A DNA stretch of 64,000 bases, taken from the NCBI GenBank assembly GCA_003024785.1, contig PUQB01000542.1:107123-171122 (forward strand), read 5' to 3'. The notes beneath the pieces were generated by a model. That model did not search any database, was not told the DNA's origin, and worked only from the letters and a program-made list of their open reading frames with translations. Both the position numbers and the translations under genes were made by a program. Position 1 is the stretch's first letter, and each line of letters starts with the position of its first letter. Origin of the DNA: Selaginella tamariscina (Eukaryota; Streptophyta; Lycopodiopsida; Selaginellales; Selaginellaceae). Of the stretch, positions 10,972 through 47,993 are shown one piece after another.

Positions 10972-11490
10972 TATGGATGTTAGGGATGGATGGCCTGTGA
11001 CTGCTGGCAGCTAGGGATGGATGGCCTGTGGTAGGCCCGGACTGGCAGCTAGGGATGAACACACATAGCTGGCAGCTAGGGATGGATGGCCTGTGGTAGG
11101 CCCCATCCCTAGCTTGTGGTAGGCCCGGACTGGCAGGTAGGGATATGGATGTTAGGGATGGATGGCCTGTGACTGCTGGCAGCTAGGGATGGATGGCCTG
11201 TGGTAGGCCCGGACTGGTAGCTAGGGATGAACACACCATAGCTGGCAGCTAGGGATGGATGGCCTGTGGTAGGCCCCCATCCCTAGCTTGTGGTAGGCCC
11301 GGACTGGCAGGTAGGGATATGGATGTTAGGGATGGATGGCCTGTGACTGCTGGCAGCTAGGGATGGATGGCCTGTGGTAGGCCCGGACTGGCAGCTAGGG
11401 ATGAACACACCATAGCTGGCAGCTAGGGATGGATGGCCTGTGGTAGGCCCCCATCCCTAGCTTGTGGTAGGCCCGGACTGGCAGGTAGGG
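10972..11490 (+). repeat. About 172-bp satellite-like repeat, three copies
   Basis: Units start at 10,972, 11,144 and 11,318 (TATGGATGTTAGGGATGG). Each unit is itself built from smaller blocks (GGCAGCTAGGGATGGATGG, GTGGTAGGCCCGGACTGGCA) and contains inverted copies of CATCCCTAGC/GCTAGGGATG that can fold back. It has no coding potential and lies directly downstream of tRNA-like copy 1. Confidence 0.85.
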
Positions 11491-11496
11491 ATGTGT

Positions 11497-11876
11497 GGTG
11501 TGTTTTAAAACTAAGTTGAATATACACACAACCCGTTCTTGTTGGCAGCTAGGGATGGATGGCCTGTGGTAGGCCCCCATCCCTAGCCTGTGGTTTGGTG
11601 TTTACGAAGAGGTTTGGTGTGTTTGCAATAAGTGGTCATTCTGATGCGTATTGGGCATATCCTTGAGCATTAATGTTTAATGTTGGTGTGTTTTAAAACT
11701 AAGTTGAATATACACACAACCCGTTCTTGTTGGCAGCTAGGGATGGATGGCCTGTGGTAGGCCCCCATCCCTAGCCTGTGGTTTGGTGTTTACGAAGAGG
11801 TTTGGTGTGTTTGCAATAAGTGGTCATTCTGATGCGTATTGGGCATATCCTTGAGCATTTAATGTTTAATGTTGGT
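11497..11876 (+). repeat. 188-bp tandem duplication
   Basis: Two nearly identical units (from 11,497 and 11,685). Each starts GGTGTGTTTTAAAACTAAG, contains TATACACACAACCCG (the same lead-in found before tRNA-like copy 1) and a block of the 172-bp repeat, and ends with AATGTTGGTG. The few differences indicate a recent duplication. Confidence 0.85.
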
Positions 11877-12202
11877 GGATGTGTATGTGGTATGCTATAG
11901 TGGTTGTCATGGAGCTACTTTGGCATCTGTTGCAGATTGGTTTGGCCTCATTTGTTTGTGTTTGCTTTTTTCTTTTGTGTGCTTGTGAGCTGTGGTTTGG
12001 AGATTGAAGCTCGAGACAGTATCCGGGCGAGAGACTAGACCCGTAAAGGTCTGAATCGATTACCTTCTTCTTCGAATACTTAGCGATGCTTGGGTTTAGG
12101 GGGATGGGAATAAGAGTAGGTTTATATAAAATCCGTTGGGATGTTTTTATGTACACTTGTATTTAGCCCCATGAATAAACTTTAAACACTCCTTCACAAC
12201 CC
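11877..12202. other. Unassigned spacer before tRNA-like copy 2
   Basis: Non-repetitive stretch between the tandem repeats and tRNA-like copy 2. I see no gene, terminal repeat or known motif in it. Confidence 0.4.
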
Positions 12203-13234: not shown

Positions 13235-13243
13235 CTTCTGGAG
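13235..13243. repeat. Target-site duplication of element A, left
   Basis: CTTCTGGAG, repeated exactly at 21,123-21,131. Nine bases is the length usual for Mutator-like elements. Confidence 0.85.
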
Positions 13244-13377
13244 GAGTCCCGACAAAAAGAGGGCTTCCGGGCTTCCGGGCTTCCGGCTTGGACCCGGAAT
13301 ATTCTAAAGAATCTACCAGAATATTCTTAGAATATTCCTAAATATTCTTAGAATTTAGGATTTTGGCTCAGTCGGCA
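13244..13377 (+). repeat. Left end of element A: inverted repeat, GAATATTC cluster and half-site
   Basis: After the terminal repeat come three CGGGCTTCC-type blocks, then AGAATATTC motifs at about 13,300, 13,323 and 13,332 with degenerate ones after them, then a CAGTCGGCA half-site at 13,369-13,377 that matches the internal palindrome array. Likely transposase and regulator binding region (inference). Confidence 0.7.
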
Positions 13378-13468
13378 ATTAACAACAAAAAATATTTAAT
13401 CATAGCCATGTTTATACTGTATTATTAAATGTTTTATTTCAACACCAAAGAGTACAATTCAACACTTG

Positions 13469-16400
13469 TCACTTCTTCTTACGATTGAGCAATGCTGCAA
13501 TTCGTGAACCACCAGTCCTACTTGACGTCGCTATTGGTTGGGTTGGGATTTCCTCTGGCTGGATGTTCTCTTTAATCCTGTTCATAGCAATTCTCCCGAG
13601 CTCAGGGTTCTTCTCAGTCCCAACAATGTTTCTCCCCAGCTCGATAGCTGCAAGCATTGAGGACCCCGTACCACTGCCTATATCCCAGATAAGATCACCT
13701 GGCCGGGTGAGTCGTTCTATCACGAGCTGCATCAATCGAGTGCTCTTCGGTTGGTAGTCCATCCTGCATGTGAAGATAATGGTAAATACTTAATTTGAAA
13801 TGAAATGCCTACCATGCTTCTTGGAACCGCTCAGGATTATCAACAAGAATTGTTGATGACAAACGCAGTGGATTATCGCGCAATCCTCTAGATGCATCTT
13901 GGAAGACAAGAAGGAGCAGGATGCTCTCCTGTTAAAATCAAAATCATTAATGAACTTCATGAATAAAGAAAAAAGTACCTTCATCTTGTTGCGGTAGCCC
14001 CAACCACGCCCTCTGTAGATGTAGTACGTTGCAGCAAGTTGAAGGTCCACCACACTTGCAGCTCGGACAACTTGATCCCAGGTGTTTGCTGCAGCAAACA
14101 CAACCAACCAACCATTTGCAGCCATATGCATACCTGCAAACTGGAGTGCTTCATCGAACTTCACTGGATCAAGGTAGAGGTATGGCGTATCACTCGTTGT
14201 ATTTCCTGGCAAGGTCCCATTTGGAAGGTCGAAGATCACCAAGTTGAAACCATATTCTCCCGCAATATGCTGGTAGCGAGTCTGGCTGTCAGCTGTATGG
14301 TACCTGGCCACCTGTGTCTGAACTTTTCTATAAGGAACCAGTCTAGCGTCAGGAACCTCCTCTTCCTTCTCATCCGTGAGCACGGCCTGTTGCATCTCCT
14401 CGATGTCATCAATCGCCAAGAAATTATCACCTCGAGTTGTAGCAAGTGAAGGGACGAATGTGACCAAGTCATCCTTGATGTCCATGGTTCCCTGCGATGG
14501 TAGCACTTCAGATAAATTGAAGAAGGCAGCTGGTCGCGAGTAGTGGAGGTGCCAGCTACTGTATCTGAGGTCTTCTTTGACTGCTGCACAGGCTGACGCC
14601 GCTTTGCCTTGGCCTTTGTCTTCTTAATGAAGTCGACCTCTGCCGGATCCCATGAGATGCATGGGAGATCTTTTGAGTGTTCATTGTAGAGATCCTTCTC
14701 CCATGTTGGTGGTTGCCCAGGTGGATAATCAAGCCAGAACGGTACGTGTACACGCTCGAACTCTGTCAGGCCAGATCTTGTCTTCGACCACATGTGTGGT
14801 GCTTCCATGTAATCTGACCAGAATACCATAGTCTGTGTGTGAGGCACCTTTCTCGCTGCGACATACCTGTAATGAACATATAGTAGTGTCAGAATGTAAC
14901 AATGTCAAGAAGATCATCCTTACCTCCAAATCATCCTTCTTGCTGTCTCTTCGTGTTCGAGGAACTCTTTCGCTCTATGGAGTAAGTGAACTTCACACAC
15001 TCATGGAATGGCTGGAACATCACGTTCTTGCATTTTACCCGCACTTCATCGCACCAAGTCGTGAAATCTGTAACCGGCCTGGTCCACTCGCCATCCTCGA
15101 TGAGTCCCGTGAGAATCTGTACTGCCTCCTCTCTGATTGCCGCCAATACAAATCGATAGTAAACCACCTTATCCACTCCTTATCCTGAACACCCGGCAAT
15201 CCAAGTGTCTCTTGCTCTCTCTTCAGATCGAGACGTACCAGTTTATTGAAGTACATGATTCTCGTCTCGTTTGGAATTCTCGCCCTTGAAAGCGCGTACA
15301 GCTTTTCCAACCCCATCCATCTGCATTGTTTCCATGTGATTTGGGTCACCTTGTCGAACCACTCTTCACCCAATGCAGGATCGATGATGGCTAAGATCTT
15401 CATCATGCGCTTGTCATGCTTAATGTAGACCTGTTGTTGCTCCTGGTATTTGTTGCCTTTGGATGCCCTTGCAGCCTTCTCAAGATCATCCTCAATCTCA
15501 CTCTGTAATTCACAGACGTAATCAACTAAGTGATATAAGTGTGAGACGTGGTACCTCAAAAAAAGATCTTTGCACAGATCAAATTCGGAAGTGGATGCCA
15601 AGCTTGTTGTCCAGTCGCGCTTTCCTTCCACTTTCTTATGTCATCTCGTTCCTTGTCACTGAGCCTGGCCAAGATCTTCGCTGTGCCCTCCTCACTGGTG
15701 CAACATGTCTTCACAGATAGCAGAAGATGTGGCAGTGTGGTTTGCACTGCCGTTGCGGAGGAACTGCATATTTGAAAAGCTCGAAGTTAGTTAATCCTAT
15801 GATCTAGAGGTCACTACTGTTTACCTATTAATTTGCTGAAACATTGTCACAAGCTGAAGATTATCCATGACCCCAGCACGGATGAAGCCTGAACGCACTC
15901 TCACTGCCCACTGATCTTATCTTCCGTGTCTTCTGTGTACAGCTTCTGAAGCACCTTTAGCCTGTGATTACCATCCCAACAGATGAACTTCTTCATCGAA
16001 AGCATTGGTGCCCATTGCCGGAACATGTCGGACTGAAGCTCCTCCTCAAAAGCCAAATGCTGAGCATACATCGCTTCATCGCTTCTCAATGCTGCCAGAT
16101 CTGCATCTGTCATGGGGTCCCCAACTTGAAGGATGAACTGAGTGGTGTTGCGCAAATAACCAACTGCCTTCTTGAAACTCCTAGTCAAAGATTCCAGATC
16201 CGCTGGATTGACTCTCCGCACCTGCTCATTTCCCAGAATTCGGCAAATAGGGACATCCGGTGCCTCTCCATATTCTCGGATTGTGATCTTCGCGAGAAGA
16301 CGCACTGCACTCTCCGAATGCATGCTGGCTGCAATGTTGTAAACTTCCTCATTATCTGGCACTTCTGCTTTCCCCTTCTTCTTCTTCTTAGCAGCCTCTG

Positions 16401-16782
16401 AATCTCCAGCAGCTTTGCGTCGTCTCTTCTTGCTCTTGGGTTCATCCTCTTCGTCACTCGACAAAGTCACTGCGCATGAGGCTTGTGTGCCTTCTGTCTG
16501 CTCCTGTGTCTCCTGTGGTAAGACATCATCCTCAACTTCTTCAACAAAGTCTGATTGTTCTTGTTGGGGTTGAACTACATCCTCTTGCTCTCCTGACCAG
16601 TCCTGCTGGCTTGCCTGTTCAACTGGAGCATCACTTGAAGGTCCTTGTTCCTGAACCACAGCCAGCTTCCTACTTCCTCTCCCACGACCCCGACGCCCTC
16701 TCTGAATTGCAGCTCTAGCTTCTGCTTCTCTCTCAGTAGGCTCCTTCATCTTCTTTTCTTGTAAACGTTGTGAAGAGCGCAT
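13469..16782 (-). pseudogene. Element A cargo: ParB-like plus N6/N4 methyltransferase-like protein, frame-shifted
   Basis: Minus strand, seven exons parallel to the intact copy in element B: 16,782 to about 15,815; 15,763-15,555; 15,502 to about 15,185; about 15,150-14,930; 14,867-13,979; 13,928-13,813; 13,763-13,469. The N-terminal 180 residues are charged and low-complexity. Next is a ParB/sulfiredoxin-like module ending in FICWDGNHRLKVLQKL, then a helical middle, then EFERVHVPFWLDYPPG. The methyltransferase-like part follows, with FNLVIFDLPNG where the catalytic DPPY would be, then KSTRLMQLVIERLTRPGD and the SAM motif WDIGSGTGSSMLAA. The C-terminus is lysine-rich (RKKK). Frame changes are needed near 15,915 (before QWAVRVRSGF), near 15,130, near 14,970 and near 14,520, so the gene is decayed. 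Gene order IV-X-I is the permuted beta class. Function is unknown. Confidence 0.75.
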
Positions 16783-16865
16783 CTACAAAAGCAATAAGGT
16801 TTAACAAAAAAGTAATAAATGTTCAAAGATGTTTAATAAAAATTAAAAAAACATACTAGCCCTCA

Positions 16866-17276
16866 CAGTCGGCGTGCCGACTGAGAGAGCAGTTGCTGTA
16901 AGTCCCAGTCGGCATGCCGACTGGGCTGGCTCAACAAAGGGAGTCCCAGTCGGCATGCCGACTGGGACTGGCATCAAAGGGAGTCCCAGTCGGCATGCCG
17001 ACTGGGACTGGCAACAAAGGGAGTCCCAGTCGGCATGCCGACTGGGCTGGCAACAAAGGGAGGCCCAGTCGGCATGCCGACTGGGACTGGGAACGAAACA
17101 AGGCCCAGTCAAAATGCTAGGTGGGACTAGAACAGTCAACCCTAGTCAAAATGCTGACTGGGGCTGGAACAGTCAACCCCGGTCAAAATGTTGACTGGAT
17201 CTGGAACAGTCCACCCCAGTCGGCCTGCCGACTGGGACGGACAACGAAGTCAGTCCGAGTCGGCAGGCCGACTCGG
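16866..17276. promoter_or_regulatory. Array of eleven palindromes between the divergent genes of element A
   Basis: Eleven units begin at 16,866, 16,906, 16,947, 16,987, 17,027, 17,066, 17,106, 17,143, 17,180, 17,217 and 17,257, a spacing of 37-41 bp. Eight carry a full palindrome of the form AGTCGGC-NN-GCCGACT (most often centred on AT, extended by CCC/GGG to 22 bp). Three (17,106, 17,143, 17,180) carry the altered form AGTCAAAATGCT. The array lies between the start codons of the cargo gene (16,782) and the transposase (17,752). Half-sites CAGTCGGCA recur near both ends of A and C. This is what an operator or replication/partition iteron array looks like; the bound protein is not known. Confidence 0.85.
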
Positions 17277-17751
17277 ATTTCTTGCAACTGTGAAGAGATG
17301 TAAAAAGATGAACAGATCATGAAAAGATCATGAGCAGATCATGAAGAAATCAGAAAATACTCACCCCCTCAATGGAAGCCTATTGTGATTAATCCCTGGA
17401 GCCACACTTGCTCCACGCTATGCCCCCAAATGCGCCGCTGCTCCACGAAAACCTAGCCGCCCTAATTGCAAAACCCTAGCCGCCCTAAATCAATTAAAAA
17501 CCAACCTAATTTCTGTAAACATATTGCATGCATGATCGCCACTTGTACATAGTAAAACTTTTTAATTTACAAAAAACCTACCCAGACGCAGTAAATTAAT
17601 TTCACTCTTCTACCCAGACGCACGCAATTAATATTATTTTTAATATTTGTCAATGAAATGATTGCCTCACGACTAACAAACACATTAACCATCGTGTGTA
17701 ATATGTTCATTGTCTTTGAATTTTAACTTTTGTTTGTTCCATTTTTGCTAC
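17277..17751. promoter_or_regulatory. 5' region of the element A transposase gene
   Basis: AT-rich stretch between the palindrome array and the transposase start, containing CCTAGCCGCCCTAA repeated twice and a pyrimidine-rich run before the start codon. Probably the promoter and 5' leader of the transposase. No clear TATA box can be chosen with confidence. Confidence 0.4.
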
Positions 17752-20700
17752 ATGGCAAGAATCAGCTACAATGGTGTTGACAAGGACTTCCCTGCAGATG
17801 AAGATGGTATTGCATTTGTCTTTGAAACAGATCTCAGGTCTGCATTTGACATTCCACCTTGGCAATCTTTTAAAGTGCTGCATTTGATGTCTGTTGTTGG
17901 TGGAGATGCTGCGAATGTTGAGGTAGAACCAGAAGGGGCAAGAGCTAGCAGTTTTGTGTATTACACACTTCTTCCTTCCAAAGGACCGCTATTCCGGTTG
18001 GAGACAACAGATCGGGACAATTCTATGGTAACAATACTTCGCAATAGTCAGAGATGTAGGATTGGGAAGCAACTGGTGGTCTCGTCATCGATTCAGCAAG
18101 TTGCTGAGGTCCCAGAAGATTGCAACGGAAATGTGATTTACGAGTTGCCAGCACACGAAACAATGAAGGACAAGTACAAAGGGATGAATAGGAAGGATGG
18201 GTGTGATTACTGGACTCAACGCTGCACAACACATTGGAATGTTCCAGCTCGTGTTAGTCGCAGTTCATGTATTGGCCACATGAAATGCGTAAAGGAAACA
18301 TGTCCGTTCATCAGCTTCAGTAAGAAAGCAAATGACTGCCAATTTAAGGGCACCATTGATAAAGTCCAGTTATCTTCAGATGGTAGAGTGCTTGGAATGA
18401 AGTGTGTGCATTGCAACAATGAGCCCCTTCTAGTGCAGACATGCTCCGTTGTTGCATATTACATAATTCCAGATGATATCACATGCACGAGGCTTTTCAT
18501 CCATCTTGGAGAACATCAACACCCACGTAGACCACCCGAATCCATGGTCTCTAAAGACAGAGCTAAGGAGACAATCAACAAAGCAGTCGCTGCAACCCCA
18601 AGAACTAATCAACGTGTCATAGAGTTTCAAGCAGCACGCAATATAATTTTGGAAAAACTGGTAACAGATTCTGGAGATGTATCATACGACAAGGTTCTGT
18701 CAGATCTACTACCACTCACAAATCACCGCCGGTAAAAAAAAAATTATTATTTCCTTTTGGAGATGCTTAACCTTTCCAATGTAGAACAAGAGAATGGATA
18801 TCTCAGGCTAGAACAACAGACACTCGTTTCAAAGAAGGTTACGAAGGACTTCTGCAGTTAAAGAAGAAGCTATCAATCCCATTCATACATGTTATCCACA
18901 TACCCGGAATGGACCTCAACGGAGCTGAAGAGCAGCCTTTAATCTTCAAAATGACGGTTGCCGGCCCAGGATCCGGAATAGACTACATTAGAAGGTGTCA
19001 ATCTGGAGGTGATCTCGAACAGCAGTGGGTGGTGCTAGACCACACATATCGTATTGATGATTGGTGTACACTGGGAATACATCTCTATGATCCATTGTAA
19101 GTATTAACATATCTATGTTTTAAAATACTTACTAATATAATGCACTTATGTTTGTGTAGTTTAAGGTCGATGGTGACACTTGCTTATGGTGACATGATCA
19201 GGGAGGATAGTGTGGCGGTGATCAAATTTTTGAACACTATGCTTCAAGTGTGCAGCAAGCAAGGACTTCATAATGTGAACTTTGCGGGGTTCATGTCAGA
19301 TGAGTCAGGTGCAATTTGGTTAGCATTGCGTCAAGTTTTCAACAATGGGTCAAAGATGAGAGGAAGAGAAAGGAGTTGTTTGTTCCATTACATGCAGTCA
19401 GTGCGTCAAGTTACAAAGAAGTGGATACTTGAGGAACACAGGGAGGAGCACATGAACCTTGCACGCTCATGGCCTGCAGCACTAACCAACCAAGATAAGT
19501 TGGAACGACGAGTAATGTTGGAGTCATTTTGGGAAGGCAGGTCCAGTAACGTTAGCGCTTTGCAAACATGGCTGTCATGGTGGGCAAGACATGAAGATCA
19601 TATTTCCATGACAGAGATAATTGACTTGACAGAAGATGGTGTTGCGAATGTGCCTACCACTAACAACTCCGAAGTTGTTCATGCAAGAGCACGAAGAGCA
19701 AGGCTGACGAAGCGTGTTCCTTTGTTGGAGGCAACAATGTTAGATTTAACAGATGCTGTTTTCCAAAGTGCAAAGGTCAAGGCATCATTTGAAGGGAGAT
19801 ATTCAGGCACAGGTCCTTCCATGGAAACTCTTCTGAAACGTGCACAGCAGAAACTTTCAGCGGGAAAATCAGTGTCTCCAACAACTTTTGCAAATCTTGT
19901 TAGTGATGAAGAGCATCTTGCAAGTCCAGAGTTTGCCTCTACAACAAATGTTCGTGTTCGAACCGTTCGTCAACCGTCAACTGGGGACCATGGGATTGAT
20001 GCACTTCGTACACATAGACATGACACACAATATGCAGAACAAGTCATCCCAAATGCACGCAGGAAAAAACTCAAGTTTCAAGATGTCAATGTCACTGAAA
20101 GAGAGACGTTGATGACTCAGTGGGCCATCAGACGCATTGGGGAGGCAAGTCAGGTGAAATGTCTAGGTCTCACTCAGGACGGTAACAGCAAGTGTGGCAG
20201 ACCCATAGGATATCCACATCGTGTACCGGCACCAGGATTTCACGGTAGACGGCAATATACAAATGCATTTGGGAACATTGAGTTCACTCATCAGATGCTA
20301 TGGTTCTGCCCACGCGATTCTTGTTGCTTCAGACGACCATATGCAGGGATTCCTCCTGAGAGTATTCCAGAAGTTCCAGAGGTTTGGCCAGTTCAAAAAG
20401 GAACAAACTTGAATGCAAATGAGGTTGAAGCTCTTCTGAAAGCAGGATTCAAGTTGGAGGGATTTGAAGAAATGGTAGACGACAGTAGTAGCCGAATGGA
20501 TCGAACACCATCACCACCAAGAGGAGAGGGAGCACATAGAGTACCAACATACCATGGACGGAGTGTGCGAACACCAACAAGAATGTCCAAGGAACATGAG
20601 AAACATTACAACCAGGCAAAGATTCTTCAAGGTCGGATCAACAACGTGGAGGTGGTTCAAAGAGGGAAGACTGAGGCCTTCATTGTCTCTGCAGGCATGC

Positions 20701-20924
20701 AATCTGCTAAGGTAACAATTTCTGCTGTTCCGTCATGCACTTGTGCAACTTTTCAGAAAGCCAAGAACTGGAGCCCCTGCCAACACATGTATTTTGTGTA
20801 CACTCATGTTCTTGGATTAGACCCAACGATTACTTACTTCTTACAGAGGCGGACCCTTACTCCAGCAGAAGTGCATCGGTTATTGGTTGGTTGCAAGCGC
20901 AATGTCGAACCTGCGACTTTTTAA
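17752..20924 (+). CDS. Element A transposase, Mutator-like, intact
   Basis: Three exons (17,752-18,731; 18,785-19,096; 19,160-20,924) joined by introns of 53 and 63 bp with GT-AG ends; 1,018 residues, no break. I chose the start at MARISYNG because element B's protein begins MARIVYGN in the same place. Residues about 145-270 hold a WRKY/GCM1-like zinc finger (YKGMNRKDGCDYW, spaced Cys pairs, ending FIHLGEHQHP). The DDE core has a first Asp in WVVLDHTYRIDD, a second in FAGFMSDESGAIW, the Mutator-type CxxH in RSCLFHYMQSV, and Glu in TTNNSEVVHARARRAR. A SWIM finger (CTCATFQKAKNWSPCQHMYF) lies near the C-terminus. The protein should bind the element ends and cut and join DNA. Because it is unbroken, element A may be young or recently active. 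Confidence 0.88.
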
Positions 20925-20946
20925 GTTTAGTCGGTATAGTAAAGTC

Positions 20947-21122
20947 TAGTCGGCAAATAATTAGCGTTTTTCACTTGTTGGTCGGCATTTTATAATGAAA
21001 GTTAAAGATAATCTACTTGGCAGAATATTCTAGAATATTCCCTTTTATTTGACAGAATATTCCTGGATATTCGGGAATATGCGAAAAGCCCGTTGTACGA
21101 AGCCCGGTTTTTGCCAATCCTC
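20947..21122 (-). repeat. Right end of element A: half-sites, GAATATTC cluster and inverted repeat
   Basis: Mirror image of the left end. It has TAGTCGGCA and TGGTCGGCA half-sites (about 20,947 and 20,981), then AGAATATTC motifs at about 21,021, 21,030 and 21,055, then CGGGCTTCG blocks on the complementary strand and the terminal GAGGATTGGC. Confidence 0.7.
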
Positions 21123-21131
21123 CTTCTGGAG
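21123..21131. repeat. Target-site duplication of element A, right
   Basis: CTTCTGGAG, identical to 13,235-13,243. Confidence 0.85.
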
Positions 21132-21604: not shown

Positions 21605-21818
21605 GTTCTCCCACGGTCACCAGACCAGAGGGTCTCGGCGAAAGGAGGCTCTGGCTCAGGAGGCTTCATATTATTTTGATATTCTAGGGTTATTCTAGCA
21701 TATTCTAGAATATCTCAAGAATATTCTAGAATATATAAGTTTTTTTAATATGCCGACTGGCTTAATATATGTCGACTGGCTTAATAAAGCATTATCCTAA
21801 ACCCTAAACCATTTATCC

Positions 21819-23850
21819 TTATAGCACCGGTGGGTCATGCACTCTGCTGCAATTCACCAGCAAACGGTGGACCTCCATCTCACTGAGCGATCGCCTTTGT
21901 AGAAAATATGTGATGTCCGGGTTTCAAGCTAAGCACACGGCTATAGACAAAGTACATGTGTACACATGGGCTCCAACTTTTGCTCTTCTGAAATGTAGAA
22001 CAACTGCATGAAGGATAAGTATTAATAGTCACCTTGCAGAGTCATTTCCTGCCAACACAACGAAAGCCTCCTTCCGTCCTCTAAGCTGTCACTTCAACAT
22101 TTTGCACACAACTAAAAACGTCTTGGCCTTGCGGAAATTCTTCTCTTGTTCCTTAGACATTTTTGTTGGAGTCCGGACCATACGTCCTTCGAAAGGTGGA
22201 ATTGTTGTAGATCCAGCTCCACGTGGTGGCGATGGTGTTTTGTCCTTCTGACCCTCATCTACTCTTCCTGCCATCCCCTGTAAACCTTCCAAACAAAGCC
22301 TGCATCCTGTAGTTCTCTGACCTCCTCACTTGTCAGCTTCGTTTCCTTTAGCACAGGCCAAACCGTTGGTGGTTGTTGGAATTTGTGACTGAAGAATTTT
22401 GCTGTTTGGCCGCGTGAAACACCTTGAATCTTTTGGGTAGAACACATCATCTGTTGTACATACTCCTCATTCCCCAAGGCATCAATGTACATTCGTTTTC
22501 CATAGAATCCTGGTGCTGTCACTCTGCTTGGATAACCGATTGGTTTTCCACACAGAGCAGTTCCTTCCTGATTCATCCCCAAACACTTAACCTTACTGGA
22601 TGCTCCGATTCATCTGATGGTCCACTCTGTTGAGCAATCTCTCTCTCCAAAACCTCTTCGAACCTTAACCTCTTTCTCCTATTGTTTTGGACCACCCACT
22701 CTGTGTACTCTACATCATGTCTGTGTGAACGTCGAGCATCAACTGTTCTGTTCCTGTGACTGTTCTCCTAACAGTTTGCACTCGAACATTAGTGGTACTC
22801 GTGAACTCCGGGCTTGTCAAGTGTTCCTCGCCTTCCACCAGATTGATAATTGTTGATGGAGATACACTTTTCCCCTCAGAGAGTTTGCGTTGCACTCGTT
22901 TCAACAGAGTTTTCGAAGGCCCTGACCCTGTATACCTCCCTTCTATTGCCGCTTTCACCTTCGCACTTTGCATAACTGCATCGGTGAGGTCTAACATTGT
23001 CGCCTCCAGCAGTGGTACTCTTTTGGCCAATCTTGCTCTTCTTGCTCTCGCGTGAATCACTTCAGCATTGTTTTGTAGTTGGAACACTCGCGAGTCCTTC
23101 TTATGTCATGTCTCCCAGTTCCGCCATGGAGATGTGGTCCTCATGCCTAATCCACCAAGACAGCCATGTCTTCAAAGCTCGAATGTTTGATGCTTGTCCT
23201 TCCCAAAAAGACTCGAGAATTGCCAGTTGTTCTTTCTTAGATTGTTCATTTAGTGCTGCAGGCCAAGCACGAGCAAGCTTCATGTGTTCTTCGCGATGTT
23301 CTTTTGCGATCCATTTCTTTGTCACCTGACGCACGAATTGCATAAAGTGAAACAGACAACTTCTTTCCCTCCCTTTCATCTTTGCTCTGTTGTTGAATAC
23401 TTGGTGCAAGGCTATCCATATCGCTCCAGCCATCCGACATGAAACCAGCAAAGTTGACATTCTCCAAACCCTGCTTCTTACAAACCTCTAGCATTGTGTT
23501 CAAGAACTTCAGCACTGCAACATTATCTTCACGGCACATATCTGCGTAAGCTATAGTCACCATGGATCTGACACTGCAAGAGAGCGTTAGATAACGAGAT
23601 TAGAAAGTGTTATGAAGAGTTTTTACAACTTACAATGGGTCATAAAGGTGTATTCCAATTGTCACCCAGTCTGGTATGCGATGCGTGTGGTCCAGAACAA
23701 CCCATTGATCATGAAGGTCTCCTCCACTTTAACACCTTCTGATGTATTCAACTCATGAACCCGGTCCCTCAACTGTCATTTTGAAGATCAGAGGCTGCTC
23801 CTCAGCACCATGCAGTTCCATCCCTGGAACATGTATGATGTTGTTGTAGT
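21819..23850 (-). pseudogene. Element C transposase, 3' two-thirds, broken
   Basis: Minus-strand relative of the element A transposase. It starts inside the second exon (IHVPGMELHGAEEQPLIFK, beside the break point at about 23,850). It continues through the DDE region (MVTIAYADMCREDNVAVLKF, RSCLFHFMQFVRQVTKKWI) and the AEVIHARARRARLAKRVPLL glutamate region. It ends with SWIM-finger remains (STFQKSKSWSPCVHMYFVYS) and stops at 21,819. The first exon with the zinc finger is missing. Several frame changes are present, including within the DDE region near 23,400 and before the SWIM finger near 22,090. It is closer to A than to B. Confidence 0.8.
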
Positions 23851-23862
23851 TCACTTTTAAGT

Positions 23863-25036
23863 AAGGATGTTGTTGTAGTTCACTTTTAAGTAAAGAGTAA
23901 CCTAAAGTGTATAATGAATATAAAGAAAGGTCAATGTGCTCCATGAGGTTGTTACTAGAGATTTACATGTTAAATAAGGGTATAGTTGTAGACCTTACCG
24001 TTGGAGTTGGTTCAATTTAAAATGCTTATGTCACTTCAGGTGTCACATCTACTCTTTAAAAAGGGATGTTAATCTCCACTCAAGATGCAATAGGAGTTTG
24101 TTTTAGGTAGAAATTAGGGAGGCATACAAACTATTCATAGACAAATAATTTAACATTTAAATTAGTTAAAAGTGTAATACCTGAAAATAACAACAACGAT
24201 CGATTGAACATGCAACTCACATCCATCACAAGTCTTCTTTCCTATCATTTAAGAAGGAATAAAATCTACTTTCCCTCAATCCTAACTTGAAATAAGATGT
24301 GGTGTTTTAGTGAGACAAAAGACAATGAAGACTACTTCAGATGTGTGTACATCATTACAGGCTGCAAAACTCCCACAGAGAATTCAAGATGTACCATGTT
24401 GTATCCACGGAACAGATACATGTTCTCATATATGACATGTACACCATCTCTGTTACGTGTGTATAGTCATTATATGATCCCACATGAACCATCGGATCCC
24501 AATGTATTTAACATTAGGTCCTTTGTGTTTATCTGTGACACTTGTTTATGTTGCTGGTTAGTATCGCTGGTTAGTATGAAGATCCGCCAGTAAGGAGTGT
24601 TCTGTGTGCAAGTCTGCAGTGGAGGAAGCCAAGGTAGTTTCAATTTATGACATTTAAATGCGTCATATGCATGGAAAAGAAGTCGAAGATAGAAGAATAT
24701 GAACTAGGTAGCTGCAATTACAGATCTGTTAGGGTCGTTCCGCCAATCTAGTTGTAAATATTAATAAAGAAAGGCGAAATTTTCTACAGTGGTTTCTAAT
24801 TACAAAACTATCTGGTCTCCAACCATCAAAATAATGCCACGTAGCATGTGGTCTTGAACAACTTGATTGACAACTTAATTGCATATTATCAATTGATGCA
24901 CTTAGCCACGTCCGTCTGGTTGGGGTTTTACTGTTACTCAAACAAATAAGGCCTCCACTCAAGGAATGGATCGATATTACCTGTTGGACAGAGACGCTTG
25001 CAACAGATTGTGAAAGAGCTCATTGACTTCTATCTT
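23863..25036. repeat. 1.17-kb direct repeat, copy 1
   Basis: Nearly identical to 59,023-60,192, differing by eye only in a few short insertions or deletions, many in base runs (for example GTGTTTTAG against GTGTTTAG). It starts AAGGATGTTGTTGTAGTTC at the point where element C is interrupted. A further copy of its first 29 bases sits immediately before it (23,834-23,862). It ends at a splice-like block (minus strand, ELFHNLLQASLSNR then GTAATATCG) next to a GA/CA microsatellite. Open frames in it are not recognised. Confidence 0.85.
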
Positions 25037-25065
25037 GTGTGTGGTGTGTGTGAGAGAGAGAGAGA

Positions 25066-25612
25066 GAGAGAAACCTGCACTATCACCCATGATGAAGATT
25101 CTCGAGGAACCTACACAGCTGAACAACTCTGTGTGAGGCAAGTTATTGCCTGAGAAGAGTATGTCATGCAGCCATCTTAGTACATGCAGGCCATCTTCAT
25201 ATGCTGCTGGGAGCCGAAACTCTGGCGCAAGCCTGTTATAGTACACATTGTATATGTCATTTACACAAACATATAGTTCACATACACACGCACGCACGCA
25301 TGCACCCGTAATTAACAAACACATGTTCAACCCCTAATATGCTAACTATTTTTATAAAAACAAGAGCTTTTTTTTAGGGATGTTTTCATCACTATGAAGC
25401 CTCCACCATGGAAGTAAACGATCACTGGGAAACTCTCTTGTACGCTCTGTTCCGGATGAACATTCTTACCCATAAGTTAGTGTTTGGATCTACAAAATGG
25501 AATTGGGATTGGATGGGATTTCTGGGATAAGTGGGGAACGATTTGAGATTCTTGTGACTGAACCCTCTTCCTTCAGAATGAATTCCTTAATCTCTGCTGG
25601 AATTGCTTCCAT
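25066..25612 (-). pseudogene. Carboxylesterase (GID1/CXE-type alpha/beta hydrolase) remnant
   Basis: The minus strand begins MEAIPAEIKEF at 25,612 and reads through VDPNTNLWVRMF and ESFPVIVYFHGGGF (oxyanion-hole HGGG motif). After a splice-like ACAG at 25,233 it reads LAPEFRLPAAYEDG, VLRWLH and FIMGDSAG (nucleophile elbow GDSAG). This is the pattern of plant carboxylesterase family proteins related to the gibberellin receptor. The region between HGGGF and LAPE (normally including VVSVNYR) is missing. The frame changes twice before HGGG, and the end runs into a CT/CA microsatellite at 25,050. It lacks the Asp/His part of the catalytic triad. Probable pseudogene. Confidence 0.75.
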
Positions 25613-31100: not shown

Positions 31101-34100
31101 GGTGGCGAGGTTGTGTGACGACGGGAAGTCAATCGTGTTTACTAGTCATGGTGCATATTTATATGACAAGTTGGATTTCCGTGTGACTGAGAGGAAAGTT
31201 CTCCATGCCAGGTGACGTGCAAACTTGTATGAGATTCTCTCACACCCTCATCTTGCTGCAGCCGCTGAGAACGTTGTTGGTGCAGATGCCTATTTGTGGC
31301 ATTGCCGGTTGGGTCATGCAAATCACAAGGCACTACACGAACTTGTGTCCAGCTACATGGTGGAAGGGTTGGATCTGGGGCCTGGTTTTTCACATGCATT
31401 TTGTGGTCATGTGTGTTGGGCAAACATCATCGCCGAAGTTTTGGATCTTCAAAGCACCGCTCTTTAGAGCTCTTGGAGCTGGTGCACTCCGACCTGTGTG
31501 GGCCCATGGACATCCCGAATCATTTTGGTGCACGTTACGTTCTTACGTTCATTGATGACTTCAATCGCCTCACCAAACTTTTCTTCCTACGTCGTAAAAG
31601 TGAGATGGTGGAGGCCTTCCGTGTGTACAGAGCTATATGAAGAGTTGTGTCGGAATGCCGGTATCCAACACCATGTCACCACCCGGTACACCTCCCAACA
31701 AATGGCGTGGCTGAGAGGAAGAACCGGACGCTGGTGAATGAAGCGCGCAACCTTCTTGCTCATGCACATTTAGGCAAGGAGTTCTGGCAGGAGGCTATTG
31801 CGGTAGCCATGCATATTCAGAACCAATTGCCAACTATGGCATTGAAAGGCAAGACGCCTGAGGAAGCATGGACGGGTCTGAAGCCTTATGTATCCCACTT
31901 AGGGTGTTTGGTTGTACAGCGTATGCCCATATTCTTGACCAGCTGCAAAAGAAGCTGGACCCCAAGAGCCAGAATTTGATCTTTGTTGGCTATGCACAAG
32001 ATGATGAACGGTGTCGGAAAGCATATAGGCTGTGGAACCCTATGACAAATGCACCATCATTAGCACAAATATGGTGTTTGTTAAGGATGACCTCACATGG
32101 TGTCGTTCCACAGAACAACCTGTGGACTCCTTATTGACAATGACTTGTTGGCTCCCCTAATCCCAGTTGGTTTTGTGGACATAGGGGAAGACCATGGCCT
32201 TGATGCCCCGGGGGAGCAGCTACCAGGTGATGCTCGAGGTGATCAAGGTGATGCTGATGTACATGAGCAGTTGGCACCTGAACAGCCTGAGCGGCAGGCA
32301 CAGCCGGAGCAACCAGTTGATGTCCATGAGCAGTTGGCACCTGAGCAGCCGGAGCAGTAGGTTGATCGACCTCCTCATGTTCCTCGCCGGTGGGGCATGC
32401 CGGATCTTGTGGTAGCTCCAAATAGACCACGCATGAGAGTCCTTTCTCGCAAGGTGTTGGAAGATGCCACTTCTCTACTTGATAGGAAGTCGAGATGTGC
32501 ATGTTTGTGGATGAGAAGGTTCCCTCCACCTTTGAAGATGCGGTGACTGGAGCGGAGTCTCTTGAGTGGAAGCGGGCCATTCAGGACGAAGTGGATGCAC
32601 AAGTGCAGAATTGCACATTTGAGGAGTGTGCTGCCCCACACGTCTTGTTGACTGTGGGTCTTCAGCGGAGTGGATCTGACTGGGGATGTCAGACACAAAG
32701 CTAGACTCGTGGCAAAAGGCTTTACCCAAGTGCGAGGAGTTGACTATAAGGAGACATTTTTGCATGTGGTTAAGTTGCCTAGTGTCTGCGCACTCTTGGC
32801 ACTTGCTAATGCTAGGAGGTGGCAAGTGCATCAAATGGATGTGAAGACCGCGTTCTTGCATGGGGATTTGCATGAGGAGATCTTCATGCGCATTCCCCTA
32901 GGCTTTCCCGGGCATGGGGACACAGCTCGAGCCTGGCGCCTTAACAAGGCCTTGTATGGTCTCAAGCAAGCTTCTCGGGTGTGGTACCAGAAGTTTGATG
33001 AAGCTTTGCGTCGACAAGGCTTTCGGAGAACACACAGTGATTCCAATGTCTATGTGCGGGAGTTGGTCGTGGACGGATCATTGTTGCCTGTATGTGGATG
33101 ATCTCTCATCACTGGAGGTGATGAAGACGGGATTGGCAGGTTGAAAGCAAGCTTGGCACAACGGTTTCGGATGAAGGACATGGGAGAGGTGAAGACGTTC
33201 TTGGGCCTACAAATTGAGCGGGATATGCAGGCTGGGACTTTGAAGATTCACCAGCAGCACTATGTGCAATCTCTTCTCTCTCATTTGGCATGCAGAACTG
33301 CCGTCCAGTTGAAACTCCCATGCTCGTCGGTGCTGTCAATCCGAACTCGCCTCAGACGGGAGGAGAGATATGTGATTCTGAGATTCCGTACCGCAGCCTC
33401 ATAGGTTGCTTGATGTTTCTGGCGTTTTCCTCTAGACCGGACATAGCATATGCCACTGTGCTGCTTAGCCAGTTTGGATCTGCTCCGAGTTTGTGCCATT
33501 GGAAGGCTGCCAAACATGTACTCAGGTACCTAAAGGGAACGCCTCACCACGGCCTATGCTTCTCAGGCCGTGACACTCAGCTGGTCACTTACACTGATGC
33601 AAGTTGGGGACAAACAAAGGAGCTCGGTCCACCACTGGCTACTCTTTGGAATTGTGTGGGCCTCGATTGCGTGGGGGAGCAAGAGGCAGAGTGTGGTGGC
33701 CCTTTCATCTGCAGAGGCTGAGTACATTGCCCTCACTTCTGGATGCAAGGAGCTTATATGGATGCGGGGACTCTTACAGGAGCTTGGAGCGGTGCAACGA
33801 ACCCCCATGCTGACAATCAGAGTAGCATTGCTATGAGCAAGAACCCCGTCTATCATGGACGGACCAAGCATGTGCTCATTCAGTTTCACTACGTTCGGAG
33901 CTTGTAGAAGGCGGTTTGGTGAAGGTGGCTCATTCTTCTGTGGATGAGATGGTGGCGGACGTGCTCACCAAACCGCTGGGCTTGACCAAGTTTGCTTTGT
34001 TCCGGAGTTTACGGGGGAGTGTTGAGACATAAATTGATGCTCCATTGTAATAGTGACAGGGTTTTAGGGTTCGGAGGCGACATTTCTTACTCTCCGATGC

Positions 34101-37924: not shown

Positions 37925-38640
37925 TTAGTTTCTCGACCCTGCCTTATAAATGCGGAAGTAGCAAGTTCCTTTTTCAGTTACGACCACTTCTCTAGTCTGA
38001 AGGTAGACAAGCTCTTATCCAGCGGAGATGCCAGCATAACCAACGGAGAGGTGTGGCTCACAGGCGACCCGCTATGGAAGGATAATGAGGCAGCAGAAGG
38101 TCCAGTTTTGCGATGCAGCAACGGGGCAGGTAGCTTCAGAATTCAGCTTTGTCATCACCAGGAAGAACGACTCCTTTGCCAACGCGGACGGTTTCGCCTT
38201 CGTCATAGCTGCCAGTGCGGCAGTGAGAGTTATGGTCGCTGGCTCTGGTTGATCCAGATACGAACGGATTGTCGAGCAACAAGCTGGTAGCGGTCGAGTT
38301 TGATACTTTCCGGAACACTCCTGGGAATGGTCAGGACATCGGCAATAACCACGTTGGTGTGGATGTCAACATCAAGCTCAAGCTCCTCTATTCGTTCCAG
38401 ATCTCACTTGGCTCGGGCAGCGCCATGTCCGCCAGGATCCAATACGATGGCCACCGCCAGGAGCTCAAGGTTTTTGTGGTTGACTTTGCGACTCCAGTGC
38501 TTGAGCACAGCATCAATTTGTGCGACTACATCGACAGCTTCTCGTATGTGGATTCTCCGGAGGTTCTGGAACGGCCCACAGGATCAAGTCATGGAAGTTC
38601 TCAGTTCTCAGTTTTAGGGTTTAGTTTACATGTCCCAATG
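37925..38640 (+). pseudogene. L-type (legume) lectin domain, fragment of a lectin receptor kinase-like gene
   Basis: Plus strand. A signal-peptide-like stretch WLLVLALVSRPCLINAEV (start codon lost) is followed by SSFFSYDHFSSLKVDKLLSS and GDASITNGEVWLTGDPLWKD. Then, after a frame change, EFSFVITRKNDSFANADGFAF, and after another, KLVAVEFDTFRN, NHVGVDVNI, MSARIQYDGHRQELKVF and SINLCDYIDSFSYVD. These are the conserved strands and carbohydrate/metal-site residues (ADGFAF, EFDTFRN, NHVGVD) of legume-type lectins. No kinase domain follows in the window. It lies head to tail behind the TBC fragment. At least two frame breaks make it a pseudogene. Confidence 0.75.
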
Positions 38641-38991
38641 TACAATCCTCGCACAATATGTAATCCCTGGGTCGGGGAATGTTCCAAAAGACATCTTTGT
38701 CGTTCAGAACAGACTGTCTTCTCGTGACCGCTGGCCACTAGTCGATGTCCAACGCCGAAACGCCCGCCATTTTGGACTTGCACAACGCCGCTCGGAGTTT
38801 GGATGCGGACAAGTTTGCATGATGTTTTACAAGCTAGGCCAATGGAAACATGCCAGTAACTTAAATGTATGGACAGGTTAGGAGAGGTCGTTGGTGTAAG
38901 CTCTTGTATCCAAGGAACAGTGTTTGCCAAATTCCGGGGAATTATGACATGCTACCGTTTTATTTTTAAATTTTCAGGTTTCAGAAACAAT
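38641..38991. other. Left flank of element B
   Basis: I see no gene or repeat structure. Short open frames on both strands do not match anything I know. Confidence 0.4.
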
Positions 38992-39000
38992 TATAGGAAG
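38992..39000. repeat. Target-site duplication of element B, left
   Basis: TATAGGAAG, repeated exactly at 47,985-47,993. Confidence 0.88.
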
Positions 39001-39110
39001 GGGTTTGACATTTCCTCGAGCGCAGTTTGCCGAGCGTACGGATTTCCGTCATACCGGAATATTCCATTCCGTACAGAATATTCGTTTTCATATAAAGAAT
39101 ATTCTGGTGT
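39001..39110 (+). repeat. Left end of element B: inverted repeat and GAATATTC cluster
   Basis: The terminal repeat is followed by ACGGATTTCCGT, a degenerate palindrome (39,038-39,049), then GAATATTC at about 39,058, 39,077 and 39,098. The right end has the same motifs in inverted order (ACGGAAATCGTACGG, GAATATTC). Confidence 0.7.
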
Positions 39111-39310
39111 GGCAGCTGGCCAATCATGGCGGCACGGTAATGTGTCAAAGTTTCACAAATTTGGGGGTTAATCTAACATATATATTTATATATTTATATT
39201 TATATTTATGTTTTTATTTTTTAATATTTATATTTATAACTATAATTATATTTTTATATAAATACCGCATCAAACTAAATAAAAATTACAATAAAAACAT
39301 AACTCAATCA

Positions 39311-39769
39311 TGAAGACTCGTTTCCACCAGCCAGTGCCTCGTCGTTAATGAATGCATTGTTACGGTGTCGTGAACGTTTCTCCAAAATCTGTCTGTCGTA
39401 AACTTCGAACTCTTCAACCATTTTCTTTGCCATCTGATTAGCGTAGTCTGGTAGAACAATACTGAAAACATATTAAAGTTTAAAACCAAAGAAATGATAA
39501 AACAAATCTCACTCATCATCTGATGACTCGTATGATCTCTCTTCTGCTGACTCATCTGATGACTCGTCGTTGTGCTCCACGGACTTCTCCGTAACAACAT
39601 CCTTGTCGTTTCGAGAAGGCGGATCCTGGTCTCCATCGTTGTCGCTAGCCAAAGGCAAATCCTGTGCTTCTGTTTCCATGGCCCTCTTCCACTCATCAAA
39701 AGGAGTAATCATCTTGATCCCCACCACCTTCAGCTGCTGTAACACTTGGAATGACCTTCCTGAAGACAT
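39311..39769 (-). CDS. Possible acidic C-terminal tail of the element B cargo protein, alternate frame
   Basis: Overlapping the last exon of the cargo gene in another frame is an open stretch (39,769-39,509) rich in Ser, Asp and Glu (SVEHNDESSDESAEERSYES). It ends at a good donor, and the next block (about 39,462-39,311) splices in frame to read IVLPDYANQMAKKMVEEFEV, then DRQILEKRSRHRNNAF and a stop. It reads like real protein but is not in frame with the methyltransferase exon. It may be an alternative 3' end, a separate small protein, or a lost C-terminal extension. Confidence 0.4.
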
Positions 39770-42700
39770 CTCTGGCTGCTAAAACCAGATCCTTGTTGAT
39801 GTCGATTCCATAACCATGTCTCCCTGTGTGAAAAGCTGCAAGAATACTAGCACCGGTTCCCACTGTTAGATCCACAACAGTTCCACCAGGCTTTGTGAGC
39901 TTCTCCACTAGCATCGCAAACAACTTGGGAGATTTCGGGCCAATTGAAATCCTGAAAGTTACAATATTAGAACATGAGAAATAACAAACAACATTATACC
40001 ATGGGAGCTGGAAATCTTCTGGCTCATCAAAAAGAAGAGTGTAGCGAGTGTCCAAGATCTCCTTGTTCTTGGCAACCTTAGAGTAGGGGGAACCAAAAAT
40101 ACACATGGCAATGATGCTTTCCTGAAAAATAAACATTAAAAAATGACATTCTCAAAAAGAAGAATTACCTTTCTAGAGAAACGGTATCCCCATGACTTTG
40201 TCGTGTGCACATAACTCATCTGCAGAAACTTTAGCTTGCAAGTTTCTGCAGTGTTCTTCAAAGCTAGAACATCATCCGGTAGCACAAACACTACCACATG
40301 GCCAGCTCTGTCTAATATCCCGAAAGCAAGGTTCACCAAGTTCTTCAGCAAAGCATCCGAGAACTTCGTGTATTGATCCACCATCCCGCCTGCCTCAGCA
40401 ACGCATCCGGTAGGCGGGTCGATGACAACGAGATCAACAGCTCCCTGGATGCATTTTGGTGGAGGCTTCGCACCAAACACATGAATAGTCCAACTTGACT
40501 TGTGACTCACGATCCAATCCTCAAGCTCCTTCAATCCTGACGGAAAAGGCCTTCCGGCTTTGAAGTACTGGACTGCAAGGTTCTCTGAATCTGCATGAAT
40601 GATTTCCCAGCTTCCATTTCCCTTCTCAGGCATCACCATCCTCAACATATCATCTTCTTCCAATCCAGCCGAGATGAAGGATGGGGCTGAAGAAGAAGCT
40701 TGTCCCTTGCTGACCTTGCTCGCCGATCTAGCATACCTGATATCCATCTTCACATGGAGCTTCCTTGCAGCATTGTCGTTCTTCCATAATAGCTCTCGCC
40801 GATCATCCTTGTGTATCTTATAGCTGGCCATCTCCCATTCGGGACAGTCACCAGGAAGGAAATCCAGCCAGAAAGGACAGTGTTCCACTTCGTAATCACT
40901 GATATCACGTAACAACCGGCTCCACATGCTAGAATCCTTGGTAACATCCATCCACTCTTTGAAATCTTCAGGGAGTGCATCGTTCTTCCATTTTAAAAAC
41001 CTGTAAAAATAGATAAAAATCTGTAAAGAAACAAAAAAAAAACTTGCCTGAATGCCATTCTTTTTGCAGATTTTTCCAGCTCAAATAGTCGAGGAGGTGG
41101 AATTGTCGCACCGAACTCCTTGTTCTCGAGCATGTTCTGGTACATATCCAACTTAATTTCATTGTGCATCTTCATATACCATGTCATGAACTCCTCTACA
41201 TGCTCGACCAAAAGCTCTTTAGCTGCCTCCGCGACCTGGCACGATAAAACGAATAAAAATGAAAAATATAAATATTAAATTACCTGGAACCAGTAAGTAA
41301 AGATGTGCAAAAACTTGATGAAGTCCTTGTCAGGCCAGCCGGTGACACCTTCCTTCTTGTCTTTCTCCGTCATGTTCACCAGCTTCTCAAGAACGCCACG
41401 TTCTTGAATGTGCACAAGCTTTCCAAGGATATCAACCTTGACGTTGGAAGGAAGCTGGGACTTCGCGAGCATTTGAAGCTTCTCCAGAGTTATTTGCTTC
41501 GTTGATGGTTTGATAGTGATATCTGTGATCGCCTTGAACCAATCTTCACCGACCGCCGGATCAGCAATGGTGAGGAATTTGTTCATCCGAACTGTGAATG
41601 TCTTGTAAACGCTGGAGAGGATCTGAGATTCTGTCTGGTTTGGTTTTCTGTTCGCAAGTTTTGTAGCGATTTGTCGCTTCAGTTGATTCTGCAAAAGAAA
41701 CCGAAAATCAAAAAACAGTCAAAAGAAGAAGAAAAGATTACCTCCCAAAAAATCTTCACCAATGTCGTCTTTGGATACTCGTACCAAACGTCTTCTTTTC
41801 TGTTCGATCTCCACACTTCCACAGCTTTTCTATCTTCCTCCGGCATCCCGCGAAGAACATGATCGGTAGAAAGATCTGCAGACTTCACACAACAATTCCG
41901 TAAGAACTGCAAGGTGTGAATGATTGTTGTAGGAACCACACGAGCAGTTGCTCTGCAAAACAAAACAACATTTATTTAGTATTTAAATAATGAAACAAAC
42001 AAGTCACTTACTCATTCAACCGATTGCAAGCAGCGATTAGTCTCTTCTCCTCTTGCACTGTGGATGCTATGAGTGTTGCACGTACACGCAAAGTCCATTT
42101 CAAACCTGGCTCTTCAGCAAGCAAAGTGTTCAAAGCAACCCGACGATGATTCCCATCCCACACCAGAAACTTTGCATCTTTCAGAAATCGATACCATGCA
42201 GAAAATGCTGGCTTATGCAAATCCGCTTCAAACTCTCTATCGACCTGTGCTTCTGACTCATTCCAACTTCGGCGTTCGTCTGCACTCAGCTGTGGTCCGA
42301 AAGATAAGGTGAACACTGACGTCTCCTGGTAAAATCCTTCAGCTCTAATCCATCCAACAAGGTCTTTCACGCCGTCCTTAGTGACATTCCTCAAACGTTG
42401 GTGTGGGAGCAACCTGTGAACCGGGATACGCGGAGGCTCACCAAGCTCAACTGGAACGTAGTGGTCTCGTCCTTGTAGCGATGTGTCAATATCTGTGTCA
42501 TACCGAATAACAAGATCCCGAAGAAGCTTGGATGGAGCCTCAAGTGTCAGCCGCTCCGGAATTGCATATGATTCGGCAACATCCTCAGGAGCATCCAGTT
42601 TCCTCTTCTTATTGAACATTTTACTACCAAGATCAATATCCGGTACTTCCTCTGCATTACCGTGTTCTGCAGAGCTTCCTGCAATCTCCCTATTTCTAGG

Positions 42701-42928
42701 CATCCATTCACTCACCACAGTATGTTCATCAATGACTTGCGAACTATCCACAGGTTCATTGTTCGTCGGCATCATCTCTTTGTGTTGCAGTTGTTGCTTG
42801 GCGCCTCGGCCTCCTTTCTTGCCACGAGGTTTTGGAGCCATATCTGCAAGAGCTTCTTGGACGATATGTTCTTGAAGTGTCAAAGTCTTGTATTTATCTC
42901 GTAGTCTCTTACTCTGCCTTTGTCTCAT
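39696..42928 (-). CDS. Element B cargo: ParB-like module fused to N6/N4 methyltransferase-like domain, intact
   Basis: Seven exons on the minus strand (42,928-42,012; 41,952-41,742; 41,688-41,284; 41,235-41,048; 41,000-40,169; 40,121-40,000; 39,951-39,696), 976 residues, all phases consistent. The fourth intron uses a GC donor (CAG|GCAAGT). Residues 1-110 are basic, with a nuclear-signal-like NKKRKLD. Residues about 165-290 form a ParB/sulfiredoxin-like module (IPVHRLLPHQRLRNV, then FLVWDGNHRRVALNTL). A helical middle follows. EHCPFWLDFLPGDCPEWE precedes the methyltransferase-like part: DLVVIDPPTGC (DPPT in place of DPPY/F/W), then KSPKLFAMLVEKLTKPGG and VVDLTVGTGASILAAFHTGR (SAM site). Catalytic-then-SAM order is that of permuted beta-class amino-methyltransferases. 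The role in the element is unknown; modifying or reading the element's own DNA is an inference. Confidence 0.82.
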
Positions 42929-43390: not shown

Positions 43391-43463
<73 letters not shown>

Positions 43464-47984: not shown

Positions 47985-47993
47985 TATAGGAAG
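47985..47993. repeat. Target-site duplication of element B, right
   Basis: TATAGGAAG, identical to 38,992-39,000. Confidence 0.88.

Follow-up and report, generated by a model that had tools for sequence, protein, structure and literature searches.

Mutator-like elements of the lycophyte Selaginella tamariscina carry a methyltransferase-like gene divergent from the transposase gene

Introduction

The closest described relative of the elements studied here is the transposon Sola1-1_Ec32 of Ectocarpus. It is described as having, besides the transposase gene, a gene on the other strand for a 1104-amino acid protein with a ParB-like part and an N4C/N6A methyltransferase (MTase); its authors suggest that this protein binds and modifies its own transposon, and similar proteins are cited there for transposons of green and red algae (PMC12477816). 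Here, we analyzed a stretch of 64,000 nucleotides of the Selaginella tamariscina genome (contig PUQB01000542.1, positions 107,123 to 171,122; below, the window), in which three transposable elements, A, B and CD, each combine a transposase gene with a divergently oriented gene for a ParB-like/MTase-like protein. By description, the shared feature is the ParB-like/MTase gene opposite the transposase gene. Sola1-1_Ec32, however, belongs to the Sola1 superfamily, has a length of 21.5 kb and resides in a brown alga, whereas the present elements have target site duplications of 9 bp, are Mutator-like and reside in a lycophyte. Compared with Sola1-1_Ec32, they also offer three lineages, linkage counts, arrays of a candidate self-motif and a non-canonical motif IV. 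The gene arrangement has thus already been published for Ectocarpus Sola1; its presence in Mutator-like elements and in a lycophyte appears to be new. A scarcely studied class, so far noted in algal transposons, is thereby extended to a vascular plant, and evidence of selection on the second gene and candidate binding sites are added.

Other described systems share single traits with these elements. VANC21 of the Arabidopsis element VANDAL21 is described as acting in anti-silencing via tandemly repeated copies of a 9-base motif in non-coding DNA (PMC5735166, PMC10398659), and gain and loss of repeats have been described for VANC targets (PMC5735166). By description, the likeness consists of a second gene in an element of the Mutator superfamily, a short motif in variable tandem repeats and degenerate terminal inverted repeats (TIRs); anti-silencing has been shown there, whereas here we infer it. 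Bce_0392 of Bacillus cereus is a bacterial ParB-methylase fusion (PMC5512222). Both Bce_0392 and the family PHROG_67 combine a ParB-like domain with an amino-MTase; they are prokaryotic, while the genes described here have six or seven exons and encode a long middle region that lacks known domains. The N4CMT of bdelloid rotifers, another bacterial-type amino-MTase of a eukaryote that is tied to transposons, has an SPPY motif and is described as depositing N4-methylcytosine (4mC) at transposons (PMC8885841). It is a host gene, whereas here the transposon itself carries the gene.

DNA-modification genes are also linked to transposases in fungal DNA transposons with TET/JBP genes (PMC12730594), which a first-pass annotation of the window, made from the sequence alone, had also named, and in virus-borne Mariner elements with MTase genes (PMC3627910); enzymes and superfamilies differ from those found here. 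According to the same annotation, no Mutator-like group with such a gene is known to have been described. Indeed, none was found in the literature searched, which was without subscription papers and preprints; the main text of a survey of Mutator elements (PMC6446971) contains no word starting with "methyl", and a 2026 review of plant gene capture (PMC13317346) contains neither "ParB" nor "methyltransferase". The type of gene as such, however, is known from Sola1-1.

Results and discussion

Three elements with two divergent genes

Element A spans positions 13244 to 21122 of the window (7879 bp; this and the other two elements are given without a strand). The borders are exactly those of the first-pass annotation: the 9-bp sequence CTTCTGGAG is duplicated at 13235-13243 and 21123-21131, and the element starts and ends with TIRs at 13244-13267 (plus strand) and 21099-21122 (minus strand). 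A third copy of CTTCTGGAG at position 6319 is unrelated to these borders. The TIRs are short and degenerate, as 17 of 24 bases match between the ends (counted by eye). Between this one pair of borders, two genes lie on opposite strands, as had been claimed. The gene for the ParB-like/N4-N6 MTase-like protein, with a match to Pfam N6_N4_Mtase and frames assigned by eye, covers 13469-16782 on the minus strand. The transposase gene on the plus strand consists of three exons (17752-18731, 18785-19096 and 19160-20924) that encode 1018 amino acids without a stop codon. The two genes are separated by an array of palindromes, AGTCGGCATGCCGACT, at 16859-17277 with a spacing of about 40 bp, and three exact copies of the sequence GAATATTC are clustered inside each end (13297-13337 and 21023-21062).

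The same architecture is repeated in element B (39001-47984, 8984 bp), as the first-pass annotation had noted. It has an exact 9-bp duplication of its own, TATAGGAAG, at 38992-39000 and 47985-47993, with a third copy in the window at 50041. Its MTase-like gene (39696-42928, minus strand) has seven exons that encode 976 amino acids, followed downstream by an acidic tail, and its transposase gene (44401-47619, plus strand) has three exons and a single frame break at around 46.5 kb. Element B lies inside a third two-gene element that had been overlooked. This A-type element, CD (21630-56683), is flanked by the duplication CAGACCAGA at 21621-21629 and 56684-56692, which occurs nowhere else in the window; its ends resemble those of A, and its halves have been split by later insertions. 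The transposase remnant of CD (21831-23911, minus strand) contains 11 stop codons among 655 aligned codons and is therefore dead. The MTase remnant (55105-56484, plus strand) represents the C-terminal half, and no match to the first part of either gene was found in CD. Thus, all three elements of the window have the two-gene layout. Three or more elements that are deeply diverged and flanked by 9-bp duplications keep a divergent pair of genes for a transposase and a protein of about 1000 amino acids with a C-terminal MTase fold.

The assignment of the elements as Mutator-like stood in part. The motifs LDHT(Y/H)R, FMSDE(S/A)GAIW, FHY and TN(N/Q)SE follow each other in the same order in the transposases of A and B (by eye), and DDE-like residues of transposase A are located at about 412, 478 and 602. 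By eye, we take this order to be a putative DDE triad of Mutator-like elements (MULEs). Exon 1 encodes a part that looks zinc-binding by eye, exon 2 the first D of the DDE-like order, and exon 3 the second D, the E and a weak SWIM match. Exact target site duplications of 9 bp, present at A, B, CD and a further genomic copy (L033) and seen by eye at another (L031), lie within the range of 8-11 bp given for MULEs (PMC6446971), and short degenerate TIRs, a further trait of the superfamily that some of its groups lack, are present in A. The transposases matched none of the Pfam transposase profiles, which weighs against the assignment. For SWIM, a zinc finger that is frequent in MULEs, matches reached 15.1 and 14.5 bits, below the cut-off of 19.6. 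No relatives of transposase A were found in the protein database at an E-value of 1e-3, and none of the transposase among viral_contigs.

Linkage of the two genes in the genome

The first-pass annotation had regarded the pairing as doubtful should the MTase-like gene occur mostly on its own, or the transposase mostly without it. The opposite was observed when the genome from which the window derives (300,702,823 bases in 1391 contigs) was searched. For transposase A, 45 of 3305 first-look candidates were scored, and two (C927, which stops too soon, and C929) were left out of the count. An MTase (ParB-like) exon was present in the divergent place at 41 of the 43 probed copies, i.e. at 12 of L001-L014, at L031, L033 and L034, and at 26 of 26 in L036-L061; L010 and L032 lacked it. 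L032 is the most diverged A copy (1.79%), and L010 keeps the palindrome array and leaves the A sequence just past it. Conversely, a search with the ParB-like exon yielded 134 scored copies of 1495 candidates, of which 30 away from scored transposases were probed (20 distributed over the uppermost entries and 10 from further down). All 30 had an A-type transposase in the divergent place, with an internal deletion in one case (L073).

For family B, 47 of 2343 candidates were scored in the MTase search, and 124 of 1636 in the search with the transposase exon. A divergent transposase exon was found at a distance of at most 8 kb from each of the 47 MTase copies, the distance being 1.38-2.51 kb for 46 of them; no copy was paired with a transposase in another arrangement. 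The MTase gene was also found at 10 of 10 further transposase copies, four diverged (L092-L095) and six nearly identical (L096-L101). At L095, the transposase exon is only 52% identical, and adjacent pieces of the B-type MTase gene reach up to 100% identity. The counts cover families A and B in this one genome and, because only the best candidates were scored, they are lower bounds that are biased towards recent copies. Two pairs of loci may represent duplicate contigs (L023 and L029 share a flank, and L084 and L087 align alike).

Both families are multi-copy in this genome, and the association of the two genes, in the window and genome-wide, exceeds chance. Mutator-like elements are known to take up host genes, so the second gene could be a captured plant gene fragment of the Pack-MULE type. 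This origin is very improbable: every examined MTase copy of the A-type (30/30) and the B-type (47/47) sets adjoins a transposase, the type of domain is prokaryotic or phage-like, and no stand-alone host MTase gene was found among the copies examined, the searches scoring the best candidates only.

Recent spread and selection on both genes

Of 35 A-family loci, chosen as the best matches to A, 32 reach the exact right end of A and are adjoined there by 31 different 9-mers; L033 is flanked on either side by the same 9-bp duplication, and L031, by eye, likewise. In the longest alignments to A, mismatches amount to 0.27% at the median and to 1.79% at most. By these sequence comparisons, the A family has spread recently. 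The same similarity, 97-99.9% identity over the longest alignment, would agree with the second gene being a passenger that was captured by chance in one ancestral element and then amplified with the copies. Because of this identity, the number of copies is by itself no evidence of selection, copies within a family not being independent, and the absence of the MTase exon from two of the 43 probed A copies would also fit a passenger. The independent evidence comes from the three families A, CD and B.

Therefore, codons were compared between these families using NG86, which gives proportions of nonsynonymous (pN) and synonymous (pS) differences. Between A and CD, pN was 0.346 and pS 0.746 for the transposase (644 codons), and 0.313 and 0.834, respectively, for the MTase-like gene (414 codons). 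Between A and B, the MTase-like genes had a pN of 0.495 and a pS of 0.772 (656 codons), and two stretches of the transposase (653 and 379 codons) had pN values of 0.386 and 0.467 and pS values of 0.802 and 0.748. Third codon positions were the most divergent in every comparison, and the compared pieces of the MTase-like gene contained no stop codon. Because synonymous sites are saturated, the pN/pS ratios are indications only. They suggest that, between A and CD, the MTase-like gene is as constrained as the transposase gene, and that both genes are under purifying selection at saturated synonymous divergence. On the opposite side, the MTase-like gene diverged somewhat faster between A and B: its dN, the nonsynonymous distance, was 0.81, against 0.54 and 0.73 for the transposase. 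Purifying selection on the MTase-like gene in both comparisons, and its persistence in three lineages whose synonymous sites are saturated, make a mere passenger quite unlikely. The earlier proposal that the pairing is kept by selection is thus upheld by the constraint on both genes and their retention in the A, CD and B lineages. As the two genes occur together in nearly all copies checked, these results suggest that the element owes part of its survival in the host to the second gene.

The MTase-like gene of the window copy of A contains five frame breaks, each of which fits a one-base shift (by eye), and no stop codon in the aligned pieces. The L034 copy, in contrast, has an uninterrupted A-type frame of six exons and 1015 amino acids; the breaks are therefore specific to the window copy or to its assembly. 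The idea that they mark the gene as dispensable was dropped because this intact relative exists. Among the 35 A-family loci, gap letters outnumber mismatches in 24 and gap openings outnumber mismatches in only 7, counts that do not tell assembly errors and real indels apart. As many A copies are only a few tenths of a percent away from the window copy and at least one MTase frame is uninterrupted, the system may still work.

A methyltransferase fold with a non-canonical motif IV

The second protein has about 1000 amino acids, is encoded by six or seven exons and includes a long middle region in which no domain was recognized (no Pfam match). Three queries matched the Pfam profile N6_N4_Mtase (PF01555; cut-off 26.7 bits) with 39.6, 34.5 and 36.4 bits (E-values of 7.5e-10, 2.7e-8 and 6.9e-9, respectively); the first is the last open reading frame (ORF) of A's gene, and 6.9e-9 is the E-value of the uninterrupted L034 protein. 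Residues 641-953 of the B protein matched PHROG_67 (E 4.5e-10), and a profile search with the MTase part retrieved MboIIA (1.4e-5) and CcrM (4.8e-5). By these similarities, the C-terminal part has the fold of a beta-class amino-MTase. The full B protein had no match in the protein database at an E-value of 0.1, and the MTase-domain profile had one at an E-value of 1, a public contig fragment (P0001) that is 90% identical to B over 69 residues, 17% of the query. P0001 reads into the acidic tail in frame, whereas B has the tail downstream in another frame, so the extreme end of the B gene may also hold a frame break. Phages yielded three records that matched the MTase weakly, with an E-value of 0.1 at best.

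The earlier label "methyltransferase-like" thus holds for the fold, but not for the catalytic motif. Motif I of such enzymes is retained, with the sequence DLTVGTG in B and DIGSGTG in A and CD. Motif IV is DPPT in the B protein; in CD, in the window copy of A and in L031, L033 and L034, it is DLPN. Without the aromatic residue of (D/N/S)PP(Y/F/W), motif IV departs from the canonical catalytic form in all of them, which speaks against an active enzyme. Catalysis, and with it methylation, is therefore doubtful. In the bdelloid N4CMT, a change of SPPY to APPA is described as abolishing the addition of 4mC (PMC8885841). The motif IV residues of the present proteins would suit a protein that is no longer an enzyme and uses the fold as a DNA-binding regulator, e.g. 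one that represses or balances the divergent promoter in copy-number control rather than acting in anti-silencing. The location of the palindrome array between the two start codons fits such a regulator, whereas the kept motif I suggests that S-adenosylmethionine is still bound. We regard a non-enzymatic regulator as a tenable but rather unlikely account.

For the N-terminal part, the evidence is weaker. A WDGNHR motif in a ParB/DndB-like setting was recognized by eye, and the part may be ParB/DndB-like. Several searches weigh against this: the DndB match in B reached only an E-value of 0.0052 and 16.3 bits, below the cut-off of 29.1, and was absent from the intact A-type protein; PF02195 had no match in the genome; the ParB-like exon had no match in the PDB; and fold predictions of this exon (two and three sequences) had pLDDT values of 36 and 38 and were not used. 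With its N4C/N6A MTase domain and its location opposite the transposase gene within the element, the gene otherwise corresponds to the ParB-MTase accessory genes of transposons.

Element-private motifs and the proposed role of the second protein

Motif counts in the window were compared with those in 100 dinucleotide shuffles of it. GAATATTC occurs 21 times (shuffle mean 1.5, maximum 4), in 18 cases no further than 250 bp from one of the six ends of A, B and CD. GTCGGCA also occurs 21 times (mean 3.2, maximum 7), 19 times in non-coding DNA, namely in A, both at the ends and between the genes, and at the ends of CD. Both signals were near the top of an unguided k-mer count. Palindromes of 20 bp that are not made of A/T alone were found seven times (mean 0.05, maximum 1), five of them in the array of A, where GTCGGCA is embedded in perfect palindromes of 22-28 bp. 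This array was present in 16 of the 17 A-family loci that reach the region, with 2 to 11 core copies (five in the window copy); L032 leaves the A sequence before it. GTCGGCA was absent from the ends and the intergenic region of B, which counts against the self-recognition role proposed below; other imperfect GC-rich palindromes were seen there by eye.

We put it at about even chances that the second protein is a self-recognition factor: by binding motifs of the element that encodes it, it would shield or regulate that element. The ParB-like part would bind short sequence motifs in non-coding stretches of the same element; candidate targets are the GTCGGCA palindrome array and the half-sites inside the ends in A and CD, and the other palindromes in B. 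The MTase part would mark, or merely occupy, the DNA of the element, and the shared promoter and the ends could thereby escape host silencing or be properly regulated. The principle would be that of VANC of Arabidopsis VANDAL, with a bacterial-type protein in its place. Methylation is the weakest step of this mechanism. In its furthest form, which we consider rather doubtful, a lycophyte Mutator-like lineage would have recruited a bacterial or phage ParB-methylase as an epigenetic shield. The protein would recognize family-private palindrome arrays, clamp or spread in the fashion of ParB, and write (or read) a 4mC or N6-methyladenine mark beyond the reach of plant silencing; between families, array and protein would co-diverge like VANC and its repeats, having evolved independently. 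Whether plant transposons mark their own DNA becomes directly testable with these elements.

The GAATATTC clusters are common to A, B and CD though the TIRs and the palindrome motif differ. They could point to a role in transposition itself, in which the protein marks or holds the ends, for example by protecting excised ends or by telling donor from target, and the persistent linkage of the two genes would agree with this. The clusters are, however, equally explicable as transposase sites, and within the self-recognition mechanism they would more likely be sites of the transposase or of an end complex. A function in transposition therefore seems improbable to us, though less so than a passenger gene.

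Other features of the window

Several sequences within the borders of CD belong to neither of its two genes. At 32652-33098, a Copia-type reverse transcriptase was found (RVT_2, E 2.1e-44), and ORFs at 48977-49980 resemble a hAT-type transposase by eye, with no Pfam match at 0.01. Direct repeats of at least 60 bases were not found in the region of 23.9-55.1 kb. Two plant-like fragments were also detected, a legume lectin domain at 38227-38724 (E 4.4e-18) and an alpha/beta hydrolase at 24980-25333 (E 2.2e-11); they may have been captured or may be part of later insertions. The interior of CD as cargo was set aside in favor of a probable insertion of other elements (B with its own duplication, the reverse transcriptase at 32.7 kb).

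Outside the three elements, two weak Rfam tRNA matches were located at 10872 and 12203; ARAGORN predicted no tRNA. The matches lie near large tandem repeats at 10972-11877, 174 and 188 bp in size and 98% alike.

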